Notes under the pieces: generated by a model
The model's input: the letters and a program-made list of their open reading frames with translations, nothing else
What the model was told of the DNA's origin: nothing
Database searches by the model: none
Shown: positions 22,825-34,491 of the stretch, piece by piece
How the letters are laid out: the number at the start of each line of letters is the position of its first letter
Numbering within the stretch: position 1 is the first letter of the stretch
Assembly (NCBI GenBank): GCA_017631435.1
Contig: JAGBTG010000042.1
Location: 80,028-115,941, forward strand
Reading direction: 5' to 3'
Source: Bacteroidales bacterium
Lineage (GTDB): Bacteria; Bacteroidota; Bacteroidia; Bacteroidales; UBA932
Length of the DNA: 35,914 bases
Made by a program: the position numbers and the translations under genes

Positions 22825-23523
22825 TTACAGCAGTTTCTTTGGCTTGCCGGCTACGAAGTCTTTCAGGTAGAACGGCTCAAAGTAGGCGATGTCTTCAAAG
22901 TCGCCGGCCTCAAGCTTGGATGAAGCGATTGCTCTCATACCGTTTGCGTGAGGGCTCTGTGGTGCAAAGAAAGCGTTTGGGTTGTCTCCAACCAGCTCCT
23001 TGAACTTTTCGGCTCCGTTGCCGGTAAAAAGGACCGGACCGGCAGCAAGTTCTGCTGCGTAGCTGTTTTCATCAAGTATTTTTGCCTCAACAGGGGTGAG
23101 TTGCTCCCCTTTGGAGTTGAAGTTTGCGGTATATACCTCCATGCGGCGGGCATCAATCATCGGGATGATGAGGAAATCTCCCTCTCCGGTGTAGAGGTTG
23201 TTGTCAATTGCCAGTTGGGCGATGGTTGCCAGGGTGCATGCCGAGATTAGGGGCTTGCCGGCTCCGTAGCAGAGTCCTTTGGCTATTGATACGCCTACCC
23301 TCAGACCTGTATATGAGCCTGGGCCCTTGCTTACAGCAACAGCGCTGCAGTCTGCCATTGTGATGCCGTTTTCTGCAAGGATATCTGTTACGTATCCACC
23401 TATGACGGATGCGTGGGCTTTGGGTTCGTTAATGTATTTCTCAGCAATTGTTTCTGAGTTTTTTGCAAGCGCTACCGAGCAGGCGTCTGTAGCGGTTTCT
23501 ATAAGCAATATGTATTTGTCCAT
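22825..23523 (-). CDS. tsaB: tRNA threonylcarbamoyladenosine biosynthesis protein TsaB
   Basis: TsaB is the scaffold partner of TsaD and TsaE in making the t6A37 modification of ANN-decoding tRNAs. The ASKHA fold N-terminus ILLIETATDACSVAL (residues 5-19) and the motif KGPGSYTGLRVG (66-77) are clear. The length of 232 residues is normal. The frame is open further upstream to 23604, but the correct ATG at 23523 overlaps the last base of the adaptor gene's stop codon (TAATG), so translation is coupled. Placement after tolC-like and adaptor genes looks like a stable chromosomal arrangement and does not imply a functional link with export. Confidence 0.95.
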   Translation of the reverse strand: MDKYILLIETATDACSVALAKNSETIAEKYINEPKAHASVIGGYVTDILAENGITMADCSAVAVSKGPGSYTGLRVGVSIAKGLCYGAGKPLISACTLATIAQLAIDNNLYTGEGDFLIIPMIDARRMEVYTANFNSKGEQLTPVEAKILDENSYAAELAAGPVLFTGNGAEKFKELVGDNPNAFFAPQSPHANGMRAIASSKLEAGDFEDIAYFEPFYLKDFVAGKPKKLL

Positions 23524-24752
23524 TACTGTTTTGTTTCTCTTACCTGTGAACCGTTGTAAAGGTCTCTGCTGATTGCGGTGTAAGGGGCTGTAACTATGCG
23601 GCATGCTGTATCAAGACCGCTAAGCACCTCAATCCTGTTCATGTCCTGTATTCCGGTTTGAATGCACCTGGCCTTTACTGTTCTGCTGGTGCTGTCGTAT
23701 ACGAATACCTGTTGCAGGATAGTGTTGCCGAGTGTGTCCACAAGACCTTTTCTGGTGGTTATAGACTGCAAAGGTATTGTAATTATGTCATTTTTCTTAA
23801 TTGTACAGATAGAAACTGTTGCACTCATCCCCGGACGGAGAGGAATTGGGCTCTCTTCAAGCAGGTGTGCGTAGGATGCGGGGTCTATGTTTACCTTTAC
23901 TTCAAAGTTGGTGGCCTGGTCGGCAGTGATTGTGCCGCCGGAGTTTTTTGAGGAGTTGGCAACATGGGTTACAGTGCCGGTAAATTTGCGGTTGGGGTAT
24001 GCATCTATCTCAATGGTGGCTGTGTCTCCTGCACTCAGGCGGATGATGTCCATCTCGTTGACATCCACAAGCACCTCCATACGGCTCAGGTCTGCAATTC
24101 TTAGCATCTCGGTACCGGCCATCTGCGATGTACCCACAACCCTCTCGCCAATCTCTACGCTCAACTTGGATATTGTGCCGTCCATAGGGGAGTAAATATT
24201 GGTTTTGGTAAGGTTCTCCTGTGCCTCCTTGAGGGAAGCCTCCGCGCTGAGAACATTGTACTCCGCAGCGGTAAGCTGGCTTTTGGCTATCTCGTATTCT
24301 GCAGTTGACTTTTCCCATTCAGCGGCTGATATGGTCCCCTTCTCATAAAGTGACCTGTTGCGTGAGTGGTTCAGGCCGCTTTGGATGAACTGCGCCTGCT
24401 GTTGTGCGTATTGGGCCTTCACTGCATTGAGCGAAGCCTCGGCGCGGTCCCTTGCAGAGATGTACAGGTCCTGCTTTATCTGCAGGATAAGGTCTCCCTT
24501 CTTTACAGCATCGCCCTCTTCAAAGTTGAGCATTATAATCTCGCCTGAAACGTCGGGACTGATTTTTACCTCAGTTACAGGCTGTATCTTTCCGTTTGCG
24601 GGGATAGACTCCTCTATGCTTCCCACAAGAGGCTTTTCAAGTGTTACCCCAATCCCTTCCGGGGTATTGCTTTTGCCTATAGCAATGAGGATTATTATGA
24701 GTGCCGCTGCGGCAATGAGGACAATCTTTCTTTTGTTTTTCTTTGGTGCCAT
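23523..24752 (-). CDS. Periplasmic adaptor (membrane fusion) protein, MacA/HlyD-like
   Basis: Adaptors of this type join an inner-membrane transporter to a TolC-like channel. The ATG at 24752 gives MAPKKNKRK and 409 residues; an upstream open extension is antisense-like and rejected. One TM anchor lies at about residues 10-27. A lipoyl-like half motif (SPDVSGEIIMLNFEEGDAVKKG) precedes a coiled-coil hairpin (about 95-185), then the second half IYSPMDGTISKLSVEIGERV and beta-barrel and membrane-proximal domains. This domain order matches MacA-type adaptors. It follows the tolC-like gene by 14 nt and overlaps tsaB by 1 nt. No macB-like permease gene is adjacent; the nearest ABC protein is the C39 exporter upstream. 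Confidence 0.92.
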   Translation of the reverse strand: MAPKKNKRKIVLIAAAALIIILIAIGKSNTPEGIGVTLEKPLVGSIEESIPANGKIQPVTEVKISPDVSGEIIMLNFEEGDAVKKGDLILQIKQDLYISARDRAEASLNAVKAQYAQQQAQFIQSGLNHSRNRSLYEKGTISAAEWEKSTAEYEIAKSQLTAAEYNVLSAEASLKEAQENLTKTNIYSPMDGTISKLSVEIGERVVGTSQMAGTEMLRIADLSRMEVLVDVNEMDIIRLSAGDTATIEIDAYPNRKFTGTVTHVANSSKNSGGTITADQATNFEVKVNIDPASYAHLLEESPIPLRPGMSATVSICTIKKNDIITIPLQSITTRKGLVDTLGNTILQQVFVYDSTSRTVKARCIQTGIQDMNRIEVLSGLDTACRIVTAPYTAISRDLYNGSQVRETKQ

Positions 24753-24766
24753 ATATGTTTGGGCTG

Positions 24767-26116
24767 TTATAGTGTAAGTGGCAAGTTCCTGTAGTGGTCC
24801 AGTATCTTCTGCTGGAAAATATACTGGTACTTGCATTGTATGTATTCAGATTCTGCCTTGAGAAGGTTGGCTTTTGCTACAGAGTAGTCTGTGGCACCAA
24901 CCATTCCAAGATTGAATTTCTCTTCAGTCTGGGAAAAGGATTCCTTGGCAGCCTCTTTATTGGCCTGAGCTGCCTTCAGCTTTTCGTAACTTCCTTGAGC
25001 CTCATTATATGCAAGCCTTATCTGCTTTTCCAGCTGCTGGCCTGCCATGTCAACTCCAATTTCAGATTTTACCACATTTGCCCTGGCATTGCGGATTGAG
25101 ATGCTGTTTCTCCAGTTGTTGAAGATTGGAATGCTCAGGCTTAACCCCACAGAAGGGTTGCGGTTGTTGTTGAACTGGGTGAAGAATGCAGAGTTCTGGC
25201 TGTCGCTGTAGTAAGTTCCGTATCCTGCACTCAGCGAGAGGGTAGGGAGTGCTGCCCCTTTCTGTATCTTGTGCTGGAGCCTGCTTTGCTCCAATGCCAG
25301 TTCCGCTTTCCTTATATTCGGATGGTTGGAGGCGGCCTCTACAGTTTCCTGCAGGGTGGCTGCAAGGCAGGCAGCGTCAGAGTCTGTCTCTTGTGGAATC
25401 TCTATTTCAAATGATGCCGAATCCGGCAGGTTGAGCATCTGTGCCAGTTCAAGCAGTGCGGTGGAGGTGTTGTTGCGGGCAGTGGCCAGCTGCACGTTTC
25501 CGTTGGCCAGTTGGGATTTCATCTCAAGCAGTGCGCTGTAGGGCTGGCTTCCTGAGTTTACAAGATCCTCAGTCTTCCTTACCTGTGCCTGCAGGCTATT
25601 GAAGTTTGCATCTGCACTTTTCTCCATCTCCATGTTGAGGAGTACCTGCAGGTAGCCTCTGGCTATTGAAATGGAAATTTCATCCTCCAGAGCCTCAATG
25701 TTCACATTGGCAATCTCCAGTTGCTTGAAACTGCTTTTGAGGGTATTGAGCTTGCGCATTCCCTCAAAGAGAGGAACTGATGCCGAAAGGTTCATTGATG
25801 AACTCTGCGACAGTTTGTTCTCTACAATTTCAAGATCGTTGAGGTTTACCGAGCGGCCCCAGCTCATGTTGTGCCCCATGGAGGCATTTACAGAGGGGAG
25901 ATACTCCATCTTTGAACCGGTTACATTGTTGCGGGCAATCTCAATGTCCTGCTGCATCTGCCGTATCTGCAGATTATGTTCCCTCGCATATGAAATGCAT
26001 TTCTCCAAAGACCATTTTTCTGCTGGTTTTCCCGTTTCCTGGGCCATTGAGAGGTATGGCAGCAGCAAGGCTGCAAGCGCAAGGGCGCACAAATGTTTCC
26101 GGTATCCTGTATACAT
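24767..26116 (-). CDS. TolC-family outer membrane efflux channel
   Basis: This 449-residue protein forms the outer-membrane duct for type I export or efflux. It has a cleavable signal peptide with a likely cut after Ala25 (LSMA|QETG). Two TolC repeats are visible: WSLEKCISYAREHNLQIRQM with AGYGTYYSD in the middle, and long helices rich in Gln/Glu/Asn (about 150-230 and 350-430) that build the periplasmic tunnel. It lies 91 nt after the second peptide gene, with a strong hairpin in between. A TAACTTTG box (26121-26128) is only 4 nt before the ATG, so either it is chance or the transcript is leaderless. Confidence 0.94.
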   Translation of the reverse strand: MYTGYRKHLCALALAALLLPYLSMAQETGKPAEKWSLEKCISYAREHNLQIRQMQQDIEIARNNVTGSKMEYLPSVNASMGHNMSWGRSVNLNDLEIVENKLSQSSSMNLSASVPLFEGMRKLNTLKSSFKQLEIANVNIEALEDEISISIARGYLQVLLNMEMEKSADANFNSLQAQVRKTEDLVNSGSQPYSALLEMKSQLANGNVQLATARNNTSTALLELAQMLNLPDSASFEIEIPQETDSDAACLAATLQETVEAASNHPNIRKAELALEQSRLQHKIQKGAALPTLSLSAGYGTYYSDSQNSAFFTQFNNNRNPSVGLSLSIPIFNNWRNSISIRNARANVVKSEIGVDMAGQQLEKQIRLAYNEAQGSYEKLKAAQANKEAAKESFSQTEEKFNLGMVGATDYSVAKANLLKAESEYIQCKYQYIFQQKILDHYRNLPLTL

Positions 26117-26143
26117 ATTGCAAAGTTAAACAAATATTGAAAA

Positions 26144-26196
26144 GGAGGGGCAAGGGATGCCAAAATGTTGCGGTGTAAACAGCTCCTTGCCCCTCC
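26144..26196 (-). terminator. 12-bp hairpin between the peptide genes and tolC-like gene
   Basis: GGAGGGGCAAGG and CCTTGCCCCTCC are perfect 12-bp arms around a 29-nt loop. On the minus strand the stem is followed by TTTTCAATATTTG, like a terminator; on the plus strand no T-run follows. It lies 11 nt past the peptide B stop and 27 nt before the tolC-like start. It may end the exporter/peptide transcript or reduce read-through into tolC. Confidence 0.65.
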
Positions 26197-26207: not shown

Positions 26208-26381
26208 TTACAGTGTTCCAGGAGAGGTCAGCATCCTCTTCATTCTTGAGGCCAGCCAAATCATCTTGGCAATTGACCCTATGCACTCGGCAATGAATTC
26301 CACAACTTTTGCAGTTGCCTCATCCTTTCCACCAAACACCAAAGCTGCGGCTTTGGAATCAATTTCAATAAAAGCGTTCAT
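26208..26381 (-). CDS. Double-glycine leader peptide B (candidate secreted peptide)
   Basis: This 57-residue precursor is read directly from the sequence. The leader MNAFIEIDSKAAALVFGG ends in Gly17-Gly18, with Val at -4 and Ile at -12 in the usual hydrophobic positions and Ala where Leu is common at -7. Cleavage would release a 39-residue peptide starting KDEATAK and ending SPGTL, with a predicted amphipathic helix (Val26, Phe29, Cys33, Ile37, Ile41, Ala44), one cysteine (Cys33), one Trp and net charge about +2. It has an excellent ribosome binding site and starts 12 nt after the peptide A stop codon. No known bacteriocin family was recognised. It lies in the C39 exporter cassette, which predicts processing and export by that transporter. 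Confidence 0.75.
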   Translation of the reverse strand: MNAFIEIDSKAAALVFGGKDEATAKVVEFIAECIGSIAKMIWLASRMKRMLTSPGTL

Positions 26382-26384
26382 GGT

Positions 26385-26393
26385 TACCTCCTT
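26385..26393 (-). promoter_or_regulatory. Strong Shine-Dalgarno site for peptide B
   Basis: The minus strand reads AAGGAGGTA directly after the peptide A stop codon (TGA) and ends 3 nt before the peptide B ATG. So strong a site is unusual in Bacteroidetes, where most genes lack one, and it supports the 57-codon gene as really translated. Confidence 0.75.
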
Positions 26394-26555
26394 TCAAAAT
26401 CTGTTCCACCCTTTTTTCAAACCACGGATAATCTCATCCTTGTACTCTTTCAGGAATCTTAGGGCCCTGTCAATGCATTCTCCAAGGTTAAATTCATACA
26501 CTACAGCGGTTCCGCCCCTGATTTCCCGAAGTTCCTTTTCAAAACATCTTTCCAT
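26394..26555 (-). CDS. Double-glycine leader peptide A (candidate secreted peptide)
   Basis: This 53-residue precursor is read directly from the sequence. The leader MERCFEKELREIRGG fits the classical C39 signal closely: Glu at -8, Leu at -7, Ile at -4 and Gly-Gly at -2/-1. An in-frame stop lies three codons upstream of the ATG, so this start is fixed. The 38-residue product begins TAVVYEFNLGEC and ends KKGWNRF. It should form an amphipathic helix (Ile28, Leu32, Leu35, Ile42, Leu46, Trp50, Phe53), with one cysteine (Cys27) and net charge about +2. It lies 60 nt after the exporter gene. No named family was recognised; bacteriocin, signalling or other roles are all possible. Confidence 0.78.
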   Translation of the reverse strand: MERCFEKELREIRGGTAVVYEFNLGECIDRALRFLKEYKDEIIRGLKKGWNRF

Positions 26556-26615
26556 AATACTTCAAATTAAATCCCTACCGATCAGTGCTGCGTAGGTTAC
26601 CACTTTGAGCCAGCT

Positions 26616-28715
26616 CTATTTCAATTGTACAACGTTGTCTGCAATGACGGCGCCATCCCTTTTGTGGGAAACGGCAATTATTGTCTTGCCGCACTCCCTC
26701 AAGCGGTGTATGCACCTGGCCGCACACTCCTCACTTTCATGGTCCATTGAGGAGGTAGCCTCATCAAAAATGTATATCCTGGGGTCTTTGTAGAGGGCCC
26801 GTGCAATCCCAATTTTCTGGCATTCTCCTCCCGACAGTCCCATTCCTCCGTTCCCCGCATTGGTAAGGAGCCCCTGAGGAAATCTGGAAATCATCTCCTC
26901 CATTTTCAGTTCCCTGCATATTCCAAGGATCTTCTCCATGTCGGGATCCTCTTTCCCGAGAGTTATGTTCTCCAGAATTGATGTGTTGAGGATGGCAGGG
27001 CGCTGGTCTACATAGGCAACCATATCCCTCCATTCACTCGGGTTGAACTGGGAAATGCTGATTCCCCCATAACTGATGGTCCCCTCCAGCAAGGGATAGT
27101 CGCCCATTATGAGTTTGAGCAGGGTGCTTTTGCCCCGTCCGCTCTCTGCATCAATCCGGGTAATCTTACCCTGTTCAATAACCATGGATGTGCCGTCAAA
27201 CAGTATCTCCCTTCCGGGATACCTGAATTTGATGGAATCAACGGCTATATCCCCTTCAATCCCTTTGGGAGAGATCTTTTCCTTCCCATCCCCCTCATCT
27301 TTTAAGGAGAGTATTTCATAGATTCTCTTTCCTGCTACCGAGGCTTTGGCCATGGCATTTACAGAAGATGTCATATCATCCAGCGGAACAGTGAAGAAAG
27401 AGCACAGCGAGTAGAATCCCACCAGTTGCCCGAGTGTTATCTCTCCCCTGAATACGTAGAACGTTCCAACGGTGAGGACAAGGCATACCAGCATCCTGGA
27501 TACCCCCTGTACCGCAGTTTCAAACAGGTTTGCCGCACCTGCCGATTTCTGCAATGCAGATGAGAGGACTGCATATCCTGATTCCAGTCTTCTTGTGGCA
27601 AATTCACCGGCATTGTAGTGCCTGAGCACTCCGGCTGCATCAACACCTTCCAGCAGGGCACTCTCAAAATCGGCACTGGCCTTGGCCAGGTTCTTGCCCA
27701 ATTTCCTGTTTATTCTTCCCGACAGCCTGTACAGAACCCAGTATGCCGGAATGAAGCACAGTACCATGGCTGCCAGGCGGATATTGTATCCCACCATTAC
27801 TGCAACTGCTGCGGCAATGGTGAAAGCGCCGGTAACCATCCCTATAATCCCGGTTGTTATGAATGAGCGTACAAGGTGTATGTCATCACTGCGGGAGGAG
27901 ATGTCTCCAGCAGTGTGGCTGCTGAAGAAGGCAGGAGGAAGCCTGAACAGCTTTCCTGTGTATGCTGCCAACATGGTATATTCAATCTTTATGCTGCTTC
28001 TGATTATATATTTTGTGGCACTGTATCCGACAAACAGCGACAGGAGCATGAGCAGGCATACGGCGGGGCATGCAACTGCCATGAGTCCTGGATCCCCTTT
28101 GGGTACAACCACATCTATGATCTGTTGGAGCAGCAGGGTAGTGGCCATGGCGGTACAGATGCATATTATGGTGCCGCACAGGGCAATTAGAATCTCCTTC
28201 ATGTTCCCCCTGAAAAGGGCAAGAAGGAACTCCCTGTAGCCGCCTGCGCCTGTATCTGAGGGGAGGTTGGCCGACGGTACAATCCTTATGATATACCCGC
28301 TCCACATGTTGCAGAACTCCTCAGCCGGGATCTTCTTCATATCCCCCTCAGCCGGGTCCATAACCTTCACATGTTTGCGTGAAATTCCATATATCACCAC
28401 ATAGTGCAGGTATCCCTGGTGGTCCTTTATGTGTGCTATGGCTGGGAGGGTGAATTCTCCAAGGGTGTGGATATGTTTCTCCTTGGATTTGTAGCAGTTG
28501 GCCTCAAATCCGAGTGATGAGGCTGCATCAAGGATTCCCTGCAGGGATATTCCGTCGGGAGTACAGCCACATAAAATTCTTGTGTGGGCAAGGGAGAGCT
28601 GTACCCCGTAGTAGGCTGCCACGGAGGCCAGGCAGGCTGCCCCGCAGTCATACTTGTAGTGCTGTCTGATTTTTGTCTTCCCCTCAAGAAGCAAGTGCTG
28701 TGCGAACGTCTCCAT
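26616..28715 (-). CDS. Peptidase-containing ABC exporter (C39 peptidase, PCAT)
   Basis: PCATs cut double-glycine leaders and export the released peptide across the inner membrane. The N-terminal C39 domain (about residues 1-150) is complete: oxyanion Gln18, catalytic Cys24 in YDCGAACLAS, His104 in LHYVVIYG and Asp120 in VMDPAEG. Six TM helices fill about 160-450. The nucleotide-binding domain has Walker A AESGRGKST (523-531, with Ala where the first Gly is usual), Q-loop Gln571, signature LSGGE (627-631), Walker B IYIFDE (647-652) and H-loop His684. The 699-residue length is normal. It has its own putative promoter upstream and is followed by the two double-glycine peptide genes. Confidence 0.96.
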   Translation of the reverse strand: METFAQHLLLEGKTKIRQHYKYDCGAACLASVAAYYGVQLSLAHTRILCGCTPDGISLQGILDAASSLGFEANCYKSKEKHIHTLGEFTLPAIAHIKDHQGYLHYVVIYGISRKHVKVMDPAEGDMKKIPAEEFCNMWSGYIIRIVPSANLPSDTGAGGYREFLLALFRGNMKEILIALCGTIICICTAMATTLLLQQIIDVVVPKGDPGLMAVACPAVCLLMLLSLFVGYSATKYIIRSSIKIEYTMLAAYTGKLFRLPPAFFSSHTAGDISSRSDDIHLVRSFITTGIIGMVTGAFTIAAAVAVMVGYNIRLAAMVLCFIPAYWVLYRLSGRINRKLGKNLAKASADFESALLEGVDAAGVLRHYNAGEFATRRLESGYAVLSSALQKSAGAANLFETAVQGVSRMLVCLVLTVGTFYVFRGEITLGQLVGFYSLCSFFTVPLDDMTSSVNAMAKASVAGKRIYEILSLKDEGDGKEKISPKGIEGDIAVDSIKFRYPGREILFDGTSMVIEQGKITRIDAESGRGKSTLLKLIMGDYPLLEGTISYGGISISQFNPSEWRDMVAYVDQRPAILNTSILENITLGKEDPDMEKILGICRELKMEEMISRFPQGLLTNAGNGGMGLSGGECQKIGIARALYKDPRIYIFDEATSSMDHESEECAARCIHRLRECGKTIIAVSHKRDGAVIADNVVQLK

Positions 28716-28731
28716 ACCTGAACCTTTTTTG

Positions 28732-28763
28732 CAAAGGTGGGAAGGGCTGGAGATTTATGCCAA
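28732..28763 (-). promoter_or_regulatory. Putative promoter of the exporter/peptide cassette
   Basis: On the minus strand, CACCTTTG (28732-28739) matches the -7 element TAnnTTTG with one change, and TTGG (28760-28763) matches the -33 TTTG with one change, at a spacing of 20 nt. It lies 16 nt before the exporter ATG. Read-through from cvpA is the alternative source of transcription. Confidence 0.4.
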
Positions 28764-28768
28764 CTTTT

Positions 28769-28783
28769 GAGTAAAATTTACTC
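28769..28783. promoter_or_regulatory. Palindrome upstream of the exporter promoter
   Basis: GAGTAAAATTTACTC has perfect 7-bp arms around one base, placed 5 nt upstream of the putative -33 element. It is a candidate operator site; no regulator gene is adjacent. Confidence 0.3.
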
Positions 28784-28795
28784 CAAGAATTTTTT

Positions 28796-29290
28796 TTAAG
28801 AAAAGATTTTATGCAAAAAAGGGAAAAAATCCTGCGTGAAATGCATCAGGAAGCCATATCCCTTTGATGAGGCAAGCAGTTCCTGAGGTATTATCTTTAA
28901 TGTGCCGTTGAGGTAATTTACAATGTATGCCACAATTCCAAGGATGATGATGGCCTTGAGCGCCCCAAACAGCAGGCCCAGGATGCGGTTCAGCCAGCCC
29001 AGCATTGAGAGTTTGATGAGCCCTTCAAGTACTTTGCCCATGATTTGGGCAAGGATGAGGACAAGGATGAAAATTACAATGAACATTATTATGTGCAGGG
29101 TGTTCTGGGTAATATCCAGGTTGACCCACCCAGAGACCTTTCCGGTAAGGAATCCTGTGAACTTGAATGCACACCAGGTGCCCAGAAGTATGGCGGCAAT
29201 GCTCACGAACTGATTGATGAATCCCTTGAAGATTCCCATGATTCCAGCTATTGCAATGAGGGCAATGATGATGATGTCAAGTGTTTCCAT
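28796..29290 (-). CDS. CvpA family membrane protein
   Basis: CvpA-family proteins are small inner-membrane proteins first linked to colicin V production in E. coli and now often linked to envelope stress tolerance. This 164-residue protein has four hydrophobic segments (about residues 5-20, 25-45, 65-85 and 105-130) and the family pattern LDIIIIALIAIAGIMGIFKGF at the N-terminus. It diverges from ileS with an 80-bp gap and is 80 nt upstream of the C39 exporter. Being next to a peptide exporter may be chance, since cvpA is a common core gene. Confidence 0.88.
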   Translation of the reverse strand: METLDIIIIALIAIAGIMGIFKGFINQFVSIAAILLGTWCAFKFTGFLTGKVSGWVNLDITQNTLHIIMFIVIFILVLILAQIMGKVLEGLIKLSMLGWLNRILGLLFGALKAIIILGIVAYIVNYLNGTLKIIPQELLASSKGYGFLMHFTQDFFPFLHKIFS

Positions 29291-33999: not shown

Positions 34000-34491
34000 T
34001 TATTTCTTTATTTTCTCAATAAGTTTCTGTCGGGAAAAATGGATTCTGCTCTTAACGGTGCCAAGGTGGAGACCCAATTCATCTGCAATCTCCTGATACT
34101 TGTAACCGCTGTCGTGCATCTGGAAAGGTATTCTGAATTCTGGCTCCAATGAGTTCACCATTGCGGTAAGCTCCCTGAAATTGTAGTCGCTCTCGGGATT
34201 TGCCTCGGATGGGCGGCTAGTAAGGACAAAGTCCTGTACATCCTTGTTGAAGATTGCCTGCTTCTTTACTCTCCTGCGGTAATCGTTAATAAAGGTGTTT
34301 TTCATGATTGTATACATCCAGGCCTTGATGTTGGTCTGCTCATCAAATTTGTCCTGGTTGTAGAGGGCTTTGAAATAAGTTTCCTGAACCAAATCTTTTG
34401 CATCATCCATGTCTGCTGTAAGACTGTAAGCATACCTGGTAAGAGACGGCTCCAAGCTAATGATCTCCTGGTTGAAATTAGCATTACCCAT
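34000..34491 (-). CDS. ECF-type RNA polymerase sigma factor
   Basis: This 163-residue ECF sigma factor directs RNA polymerase to a small regulon. Region 2 includes TRYAYSLTADMDDAKDLVQ and TNIKAWMYTIMKNTFINDYRRR (about residues 18-76). Region 4 contains LEPEFRIPFQMHDSGYKYQE followed by the helix-turn-helix IADELGLHLGTVKSRIHFSR (about 118-157). No anti-sigma gene is adjacent on the same strand, so it may be constitutively active or regulated otherwise. It runs convergent to lspA, with hairpins between, and divergent from tRNA-Ser. Its targets are not known from this window. Confidence 0.94.
   Translation of the reverse strand: MGNANFNQEIISLEPSLTRYAYSLTADMDDAKDLVQETYFKALYNQDKFDEQTNIKAWMYTIMKNTFINDYRRRVKKQAIFNKDVQDFVLTSRPSEANPESDYNFRELTAMVNSLEPEFRIPFQMHDSGYKYQEIADELGLHLGTVKSRIHFSRQKLIEKIKK

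Follow-up and report, generated by a model that had tools for sequence, protein, structure and literature searches.

A conserved pair of double-glycine peptide genes beside a C39 exporter in gut Bacteroidales, with a predicted pseudoknotted leader RNA

Do the two tiny genes that follow a C39 exporter gene in a Bacteroidales genome encode real peptides, and if so, what kind of system do they form? The locus lies within a stretch of 35,914 nucleotides (hereafter, the window) from an incomplete assembly (G000, 88% complete), and its genes are arranged on the minus strand in the order cvpA, PCAT, pepA, pepB, TolC, adaptor and tsaB. A preliminary description had picked out the exporter and the two peptide genes, which stand, but had missed the neighbouring TolC and membrane-fusion protein (MFP) genes, a leader RNA and a Shine-Dalgarno (SD) sequence before pepB. 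The upstream flank of the cassette is a cvpA-like gene (28796..29290, minus strand, PF02674) and the downstream flank of the locus is tsaB (22825..23604, minus strand, TIGR03725, E = 1e-47). The gap between cvpA and PCAT (28716-28795) contains a palindrome, GAGTAAATTTTACTC, which is possibly an operator. By eye, two ORFs distant from the cassette resemble a sensor histidine kinase (21-2270, at the far end of the window) and an ECF sigma factor (34000-34491).

The exporter gene (26616..28715, minus strand) encodes 699 amino acids that comprise, according to Pfam, a C39 peptidase domain (PF03412, E = 2.6e-31), an ABC membrane domain (ABC_membrane) and an ATPase domain (ABC_tran); the product thus combines a C39 domain bearing Cys, His and Asp with transmembrane and ATPase domains, as defines a PCAT. 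Across 59 aligned PCATs (one from the window, 34 from same-genus loci, four others from L105-L108 and 20 from other genera), Cys24 was present in 58 sequences, with a gap in the remaining one, and His104 and Asp120 were present in all 59, which bears out the intact catalytic triad proposed from the window. pepA (26394..26555, minus strand) has 53 codons for a 15-residue double-glycine leader and a 38-residue mature peptide with G45xxxG49, and pepB (26208..26381, minus strand) has 57 codons for an 18-residue double-glycine leader and a 39-residue mature peptide with A31xxxG35. The gene coordinates, codon numbers and mature lengths given previously were all correct, as were the leader residues (Glu-8, Leu-7 and Ile-4 in pepA, Val-4 in pepB, and a terminal GG in both). 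Glycines occupy positions -2 and -1 in 35 of 35 pepA and 35 of 35 pepB precursors; for 13 of the 70, the start codon was chosen by hand from the in-frame ATGs. Each mature window peptide carries a net charge of +2, and among the 35 precursors of each type the mature charge ranges from -2 to +5 for pepA and from +1 to +6 for pepB. Cysteine is not conserved (zero or one in 33 of 35 pepA and in all 35 pepB sequences), and the maximal helical hydrophobic moment exceeded that of shuffled sequences (mean z of 2.3 for pepA and 1.6 for pepB).

We then compared the locus across relatives. PCAT was found in 34 of 36 same-genus relatives, and the peptide pair follows it in all 34 loci, so that with the window the arrangement occurs in 35 of 37 genomes of the genus; in the other two, G001 and G009, the searches at the thresholds applied detected neither PCAT nor either peptide gene. 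TolC lies 3' of the cassette in 33 of the 34 same-genus loci (it was undetected in L087), and both TolC and MFP were found in 32, the L098 sequence ending beforehand. The complete order cvpA-PCAT-TolC-MFP-tsaB is kept in 26 of the 34; in L077, L102 and L103, cvpA and ileS sit past tsaB, and in the remaining loci a contig ends or a flank gene was undetected. A search for homologous loci lacking the small ORFs or carrying broken frames did not refute the pair.

A similar arrangement was observed beyond the genus. A pepB profile trained on the genus matched 130 of 398 genomes of the family, including 37 of 39 from the genus, in 10 of 25 genera, and a wider pepA profile matched 166 of 299 family genomes in 12 of 25 genera, some of the pepA-positive genomes having contributed training rows to that profile. 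Both peptides were located 3' of PCAT in 20 of 20 loci from nine other genera, all chosen for having a pepB match (pepA of L139 and L140 and pepB of L153 were spotted by eye), and 19 of these loci keep the cvpA-PCAT-TolC-MFP-tsaB order, L145 being the exception. In one more distant genome, G548, no PCAT was recognised within 14 kb of the peptides. Among 78 named loci, 22 have both peptides, and for 12 of those 22 a source is stated, namely the gut of a ruminant (cattle, buffalo, deer, yak or goat). The cassette usually occupies one fixed chromosomal site in gut Bacteroidales. For 34 pepA and 27 pepB pairs with more than 60% identity (the window being in one of the 61), dN/dS was mostly 0.1-0.3, with a range of 0 to 0.76 and undefined values in nine saturated pairs, which indicates that purifying selection acts on the peptides within species groups. 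Synteny and low dN/dS together bear out the two genes as real.

The TolC-family outer membrane channel gene (24767..26116, minus strand, PF02321, E = 4.6e-56) and the adaptor gene of the RND_mfp/MacA type (23523..24836, minus strand, TIGR01730, E = 6.2e-53) would complete a secretion unit. We correlated pairwise sequence distances over 31 genomes, three of the 34 having been dropped because a gene was missing. The distances of PCAT, TolC, MFP and mature pepA intercorrelate at 0.89-0.94, and those of TsaB correlate with the same four at 0.70-0.79. Since CvpA, which is not part of the export machine, reaches 0.78-0.86 with them, and pepB only 0.80-0.85 (0.83 with CvpA), much of the correlation reflects shared phylogeny. 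Between pepB and TolC we recognised by eye a terminator-like hairpin (26140..26196, minus strand) with 12-bp arms at 26185-26196 and 26144-26155 followed by TTTT. Downstream, TAACTTTG (26121..26128, minus strand), a TAnnTTTG-type box 4 nt ahead of the annotated TolC ATG, fits what we take to be the Bacteroidetes -7 box, TAnnTTTG; such a box occurs 3' of pepB in 23 of 23 among the sequences listed. Because of the hairpin and the box, TolC may have its own promoter. In several relatives the box (26114-26128 in the window) lies similarly near the TolC ATG, a proximity that possibly reflects a leaderless mRNA or a true start further downstream.

We further analyzed the helix-pairing potential and family membership of the peptides. 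Every row of the wide alignments (39 pepB, with 19 from the genus and 20 from other genera; 38 pepA, with 18 and 20) has a small-xxx-small, or GxxxG-like, motif at one position, 31/35 in pepB and 45/49 in pepA, and no other position exceeds 45% in any of the four alignments examined (L097 and L098 were excluded from alignments A1 and A2). It is a short motif that we could not make out in the pepB-like peptides of distant loci. Neither window peptide passes the cut-off of any family profile, so that the earlier statement that no known family was recognised holds. Weak matches among relatives were to ComC (PF03047) in one of 38 pepA rows (E = 3.1e-5), BlpC (NF033215) in one of 33 pepA rows (E = 4.4e-4), a CTB family bacteriocin in three of 33 pepB rows (best E = 0.0085) and Bacteriocin_IIc in one of 39 pepB rows (E = 0.05). 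Profile searches of the PDB at E up to 10 gave 16 and 8 matches, with no bacteriocin among them. pepA presumably resembles plantaricin J and pepB plantaricin K, and we claim no homology.

Among known systems, the closest in anatomy are the class IIb two-peptide bacteriocins such as plantaricin S, plantaricin JK and EF, and lactococcin G, which are known mainly from Gram-positive bacteria. As in those systems, two different adjacent double-glycine leader genes accompany a PCAT (35 of 35 same-genus PCAT loci including the window), and the peptides are small, amphipathic and mostly cationic, each with a GxxxG-like motif. Such motifs occur in all class IIb bacteriocins so far characterised, as stated in the available part of PMC6382864. 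Unlike class IIb systems, the present one has a Gram-negative host, an adjoining TolC and MFP, a leader RNA pseudoknot, no adjoining immunity candidate outside one genus (g45), no PDB relative and a near-universal presence in its genus. Judged by its anatomy, the locus is predicted to work like a class IIb two-peptide system. We do not claim membership of that class, because the window's pair has no dedicated immunity gene next to it, kinship with a known bacteriocin family is unproven and the activity is a prediction.

CPBP/Abi proteins serve as immunity proteins for some class IIb bacteriocins. In g45, the gene of an Abi-like CPBP membrane protein lies between pepB and TolC in 11 of 11 loci examined (13 genomes of this genus have a pepA match), as detected with PF02517 in two loci (E = 2.4e-15 and 1.5e-14) and by tblastn in nine, and this gene suggests self-protection. 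In the other non-g45 loci, either the PCAT-TolC gap was too short for a CPBP gene or tblastn of the locus was negative.

Two further systems were considered. Bacteroidetocins, as far as the consulted part of PMC6671954 describes them, share the phylum, the double-glycine leader, a PCAT and the lack of an obvious immunity gene; however, they are single peptides with at least two cysteines, accompanied by a transmembrane protein and mostly also by a thiol oxidoreductase, unlike the cysteine-poor pair here, and we recognised neither kind of gene in the cvpA-tsaB interval of the window. Colicin V and class II microcins are likewise exported as double-glycine peptides by a PCAT, an MFP and TolC (CvaAB-TolC; for colicin V, PMC10352776), but as one peptide, and the adaptor here is instead of the RND_mfp/MacA kind. 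The sections available of a Bacteroidales RiPP survey (PMC10352776) and the Hungate1000 survey (PMC13289728) cover other systems, and in the literature partially covered we recognised no description of this peptide pair.

The gap between PCAT and pepA is predicted to hold a new cis-acting RNA element composed of a covarying hairpin and a pseudoknot (26574..26616, minus strand), whose 3' end lies 18 nt ahead of the pepA start codon. Hairpin P1 (26607-26616, minus strand; 3 bp in the window) has the final nucleotide of the PCAT stop codon as its first base, and the pseudoknot stems are P2 (26601-26604 with 26584-26587) and P3 (26592-26596 with 26574-26578), both on the minus strand. In an alignment of 71 such gaps (A9; the short sequence L260, of 72, was omitted), 77.6% of the cells were paired, compared with 62.6 ± 0.8% in shuffles (0 of 500 reached the observed value), a count biased in favour of the structure, which was picked from the same alignment. 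Covariation was 0.438, compared with 0.196 in shuffles and at most 0.159 in slid versions, and two-sided changes were found in 14 of 14 pairs; the paired share was 67.5% for P1, 80.2% for P2 and 85.5% for P3. An H-type pseudoknot of 4 + 5 bp, any such knot within 78 nt being accepted, was possible in 69 of 71 sequences (not in L138 and L146) versus 406 of 2840 dinucleotide shuffles.

Pseudoknot geometry alone was rejected as a signature, since its 91 matches in the window are not special compared with 82-104 in shuffles; geometry combined with a GGYGGnA-type consensus gave three matches versus 0, 1 and 1. Seven loci that have no cassette, distant pairs or another PCAT (L170, L190, L278, L275, L279, L280 and L188) gave no match at the peptides. 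A covariance model covering P1 and P3 (without the pseudoknot), applied to 20 genomes with 150 candidates scored per genome, matched at pepA in 16 of 17 genomes with the system (G005 was missed); 15 of these 16 had given training rows, and the untrained G135 scored E = 0.19. No match was obtained in G009, G001 and G066, and three more weak matches (E = 0.66-0.80) occurred in G034 and G063. Among Rfam covariance models, nothing overlapped 26556-26616 in the window at E up to 5, and no description of the pseudoknot turned up in the literature searched. The position of the RNA suggests control of pepA and pepB relative to the exporter. In the P1 hairpin (columns 22-35 of alignment A9) the loop is often self-complementary (GCGC, CCGG, TATA), which could permit kissing loops or point to a DNA operator.

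A second candidate control element is the sequence ahead of pepB, AAAGGAGG. In 42 of 68 loci a GGAGG-type motif lies ahead of a candidate start of pepB, as it does in 29 of the 45 loci (counted by eye) with a single candidate pepB ATG. Elsewhere it was found at pepA in 4 of 72 cases, PCAT 9/62, TolC 4/32 and MFP 1/46, and at the flank genes TsaB 4/60, CvpA 0/57 and IleS 2/66; before pepB of g45 it occurred in none of the seven loci listed. According to the part of PMC9976891 consulted, ribosomes of Bacteroidia miss SD sequences as bS21, bS18 and bS6 sequester the 16S rRNA tail, and ribosomes without bS21 gain function. An SD sequence before pepB is odd for Bacteroidales, and it may equally serve translational coupling. 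Along with the leader RNA, it makes translational control accessible to experiment in a phylum in which SD sequences are as a rule disregarded by the ribosome.

We assign a probability of roughly 0.55 to the reading that the locus encodes a mostly vertically inherited, two-peptide, helix-pairing and membrane-active agent exported by PCAT-MFP-TolC. PepA and PepB would be synthesised with double-glycine leaders, the C39 domain would cut after GG and the mature peptides would leave through PCAT-MFP-TolC. Once secreted, the amphipathic, mostly cationic helices of PepA and PepB would pair by way of the one small-xxx-small face conserved in each and would act on a membrane like class IIb bacteriocins, probably against close relatives, and the RNA pseudoknot and the SD sequence would tune peptide translation separately from the exporter. 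The motif, synteny, TolC and adaptor genes and the g45 CPBP gene agree with the hedged proposal, already made, of a class IIb-like pair or signal in an undescribed secreted-peptide system. However, many bacteriocins are patchy in distribution, and the near-universal, syntenic distribution observed here argues against such an agent, as do the shortness of the motif, the absence of a PDB relative and the lack of an adjoining immunity candidate outside g45, although bacteroidetocin regions have no obvious immunity gene either; the CvpA and pepB correlations, which show shared phylogeny, lower our confidence slightly. That same distribution, mostly at one site and under purifying selection, would suit a core physiological pair working on the envelope, the biofilm or the host surface of the producer itself, as would the lack of an adjoining immunity candidate outside g45 and the role of cyanobacterial double-glycine proteins in biofilm formation (reported in the portion of PMC4997328 consulted). 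We regard this account as possible, if unlikely, since the g45 CPBP gene suggests self-protection and the cassette is dispensable, being absent between cvpA and TolC in three genomes.

Double-glycine leaders also serve pheromones, and the ComC and BlpC matches and purifying selection within species groups would fit peptides sensed by the same species. Signalling nevertheless has little support and seems doubtful: no kinase, response-regulator or receptor gene was recognised from cvpA to tsaB in the window, a signal would not require two peptides conserved together, both bearing a helix-pairing motif, and the single-row matches may stem from the leader. That the small ORFs are spurious parts of an ordinary efflux operon is highly improbable; TolC-MFP is indeed also found without the cassette, but conservation, double-glycine leaders, synteny and low dN/dS in both peptides speak against it. 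More speculatively, the class IIb-like agent may be a near-core, family-wide two-peptide weapon or toolkit whose peptide genes are governed by pseudoknotted leader RNAs of a new class and whose PepB dosage is set by SD-dependent translation, perhaps on bS21-poor ribosomes, which would couple secretion to ribosome state, an extension that we consider tentative and rather unlikely. For ruminant-gut Bacteroidales, a widespread two-peptide system would bring a new set of molecules of gut antagonism or communication into view.

Loci without the cassette and loci in distant genomes were also inspected. TolC-MFP comes straight after cvpA in G009, G066 and G065, which implies that the cassette is dispensable and that TolC-MFP can stand alone. 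An adaptor match was obtained in 6 of 16 peptide-negative genomes; G072 and G082 have TolC-MFP-tsaB with cvpA undetected, and in G076 a divergent pair lies where the contig ends. A different contig of G009 (L171) gave no peptide match. In the ileS-cvpA interval of the G009 locus (L275, 3859-6737 in reverse-complement coordinates), integrase-like and ATPase-like ORFs were noticed by eye.

An order-wide pepB search matched 13 of 295 genomes. Three belong to family f1, the window's own genome included, nine matches were discarded as chance because they fell inside ORFs of at least 325 aa, and G548 has a genuine-looking peptide pair. Three distant pepA-like sequences used as queries matched 6 of 295 genomes, four strongly (L281-L284) and two weakly; a pepB-like partner is present in L281, L282 and L284, and none was found in L283 under the filter applied. 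Divergent A-like/B-like double-glycine pairs occur in other Bacteroidales (L170, 4328-4663; L190, 3942-4602; L281, L282 and L284) and in genus g41 of the same family (L278, 37-455), and in L190 and L284 (G049) a PCAT lies about 1.5 kb from the pair.
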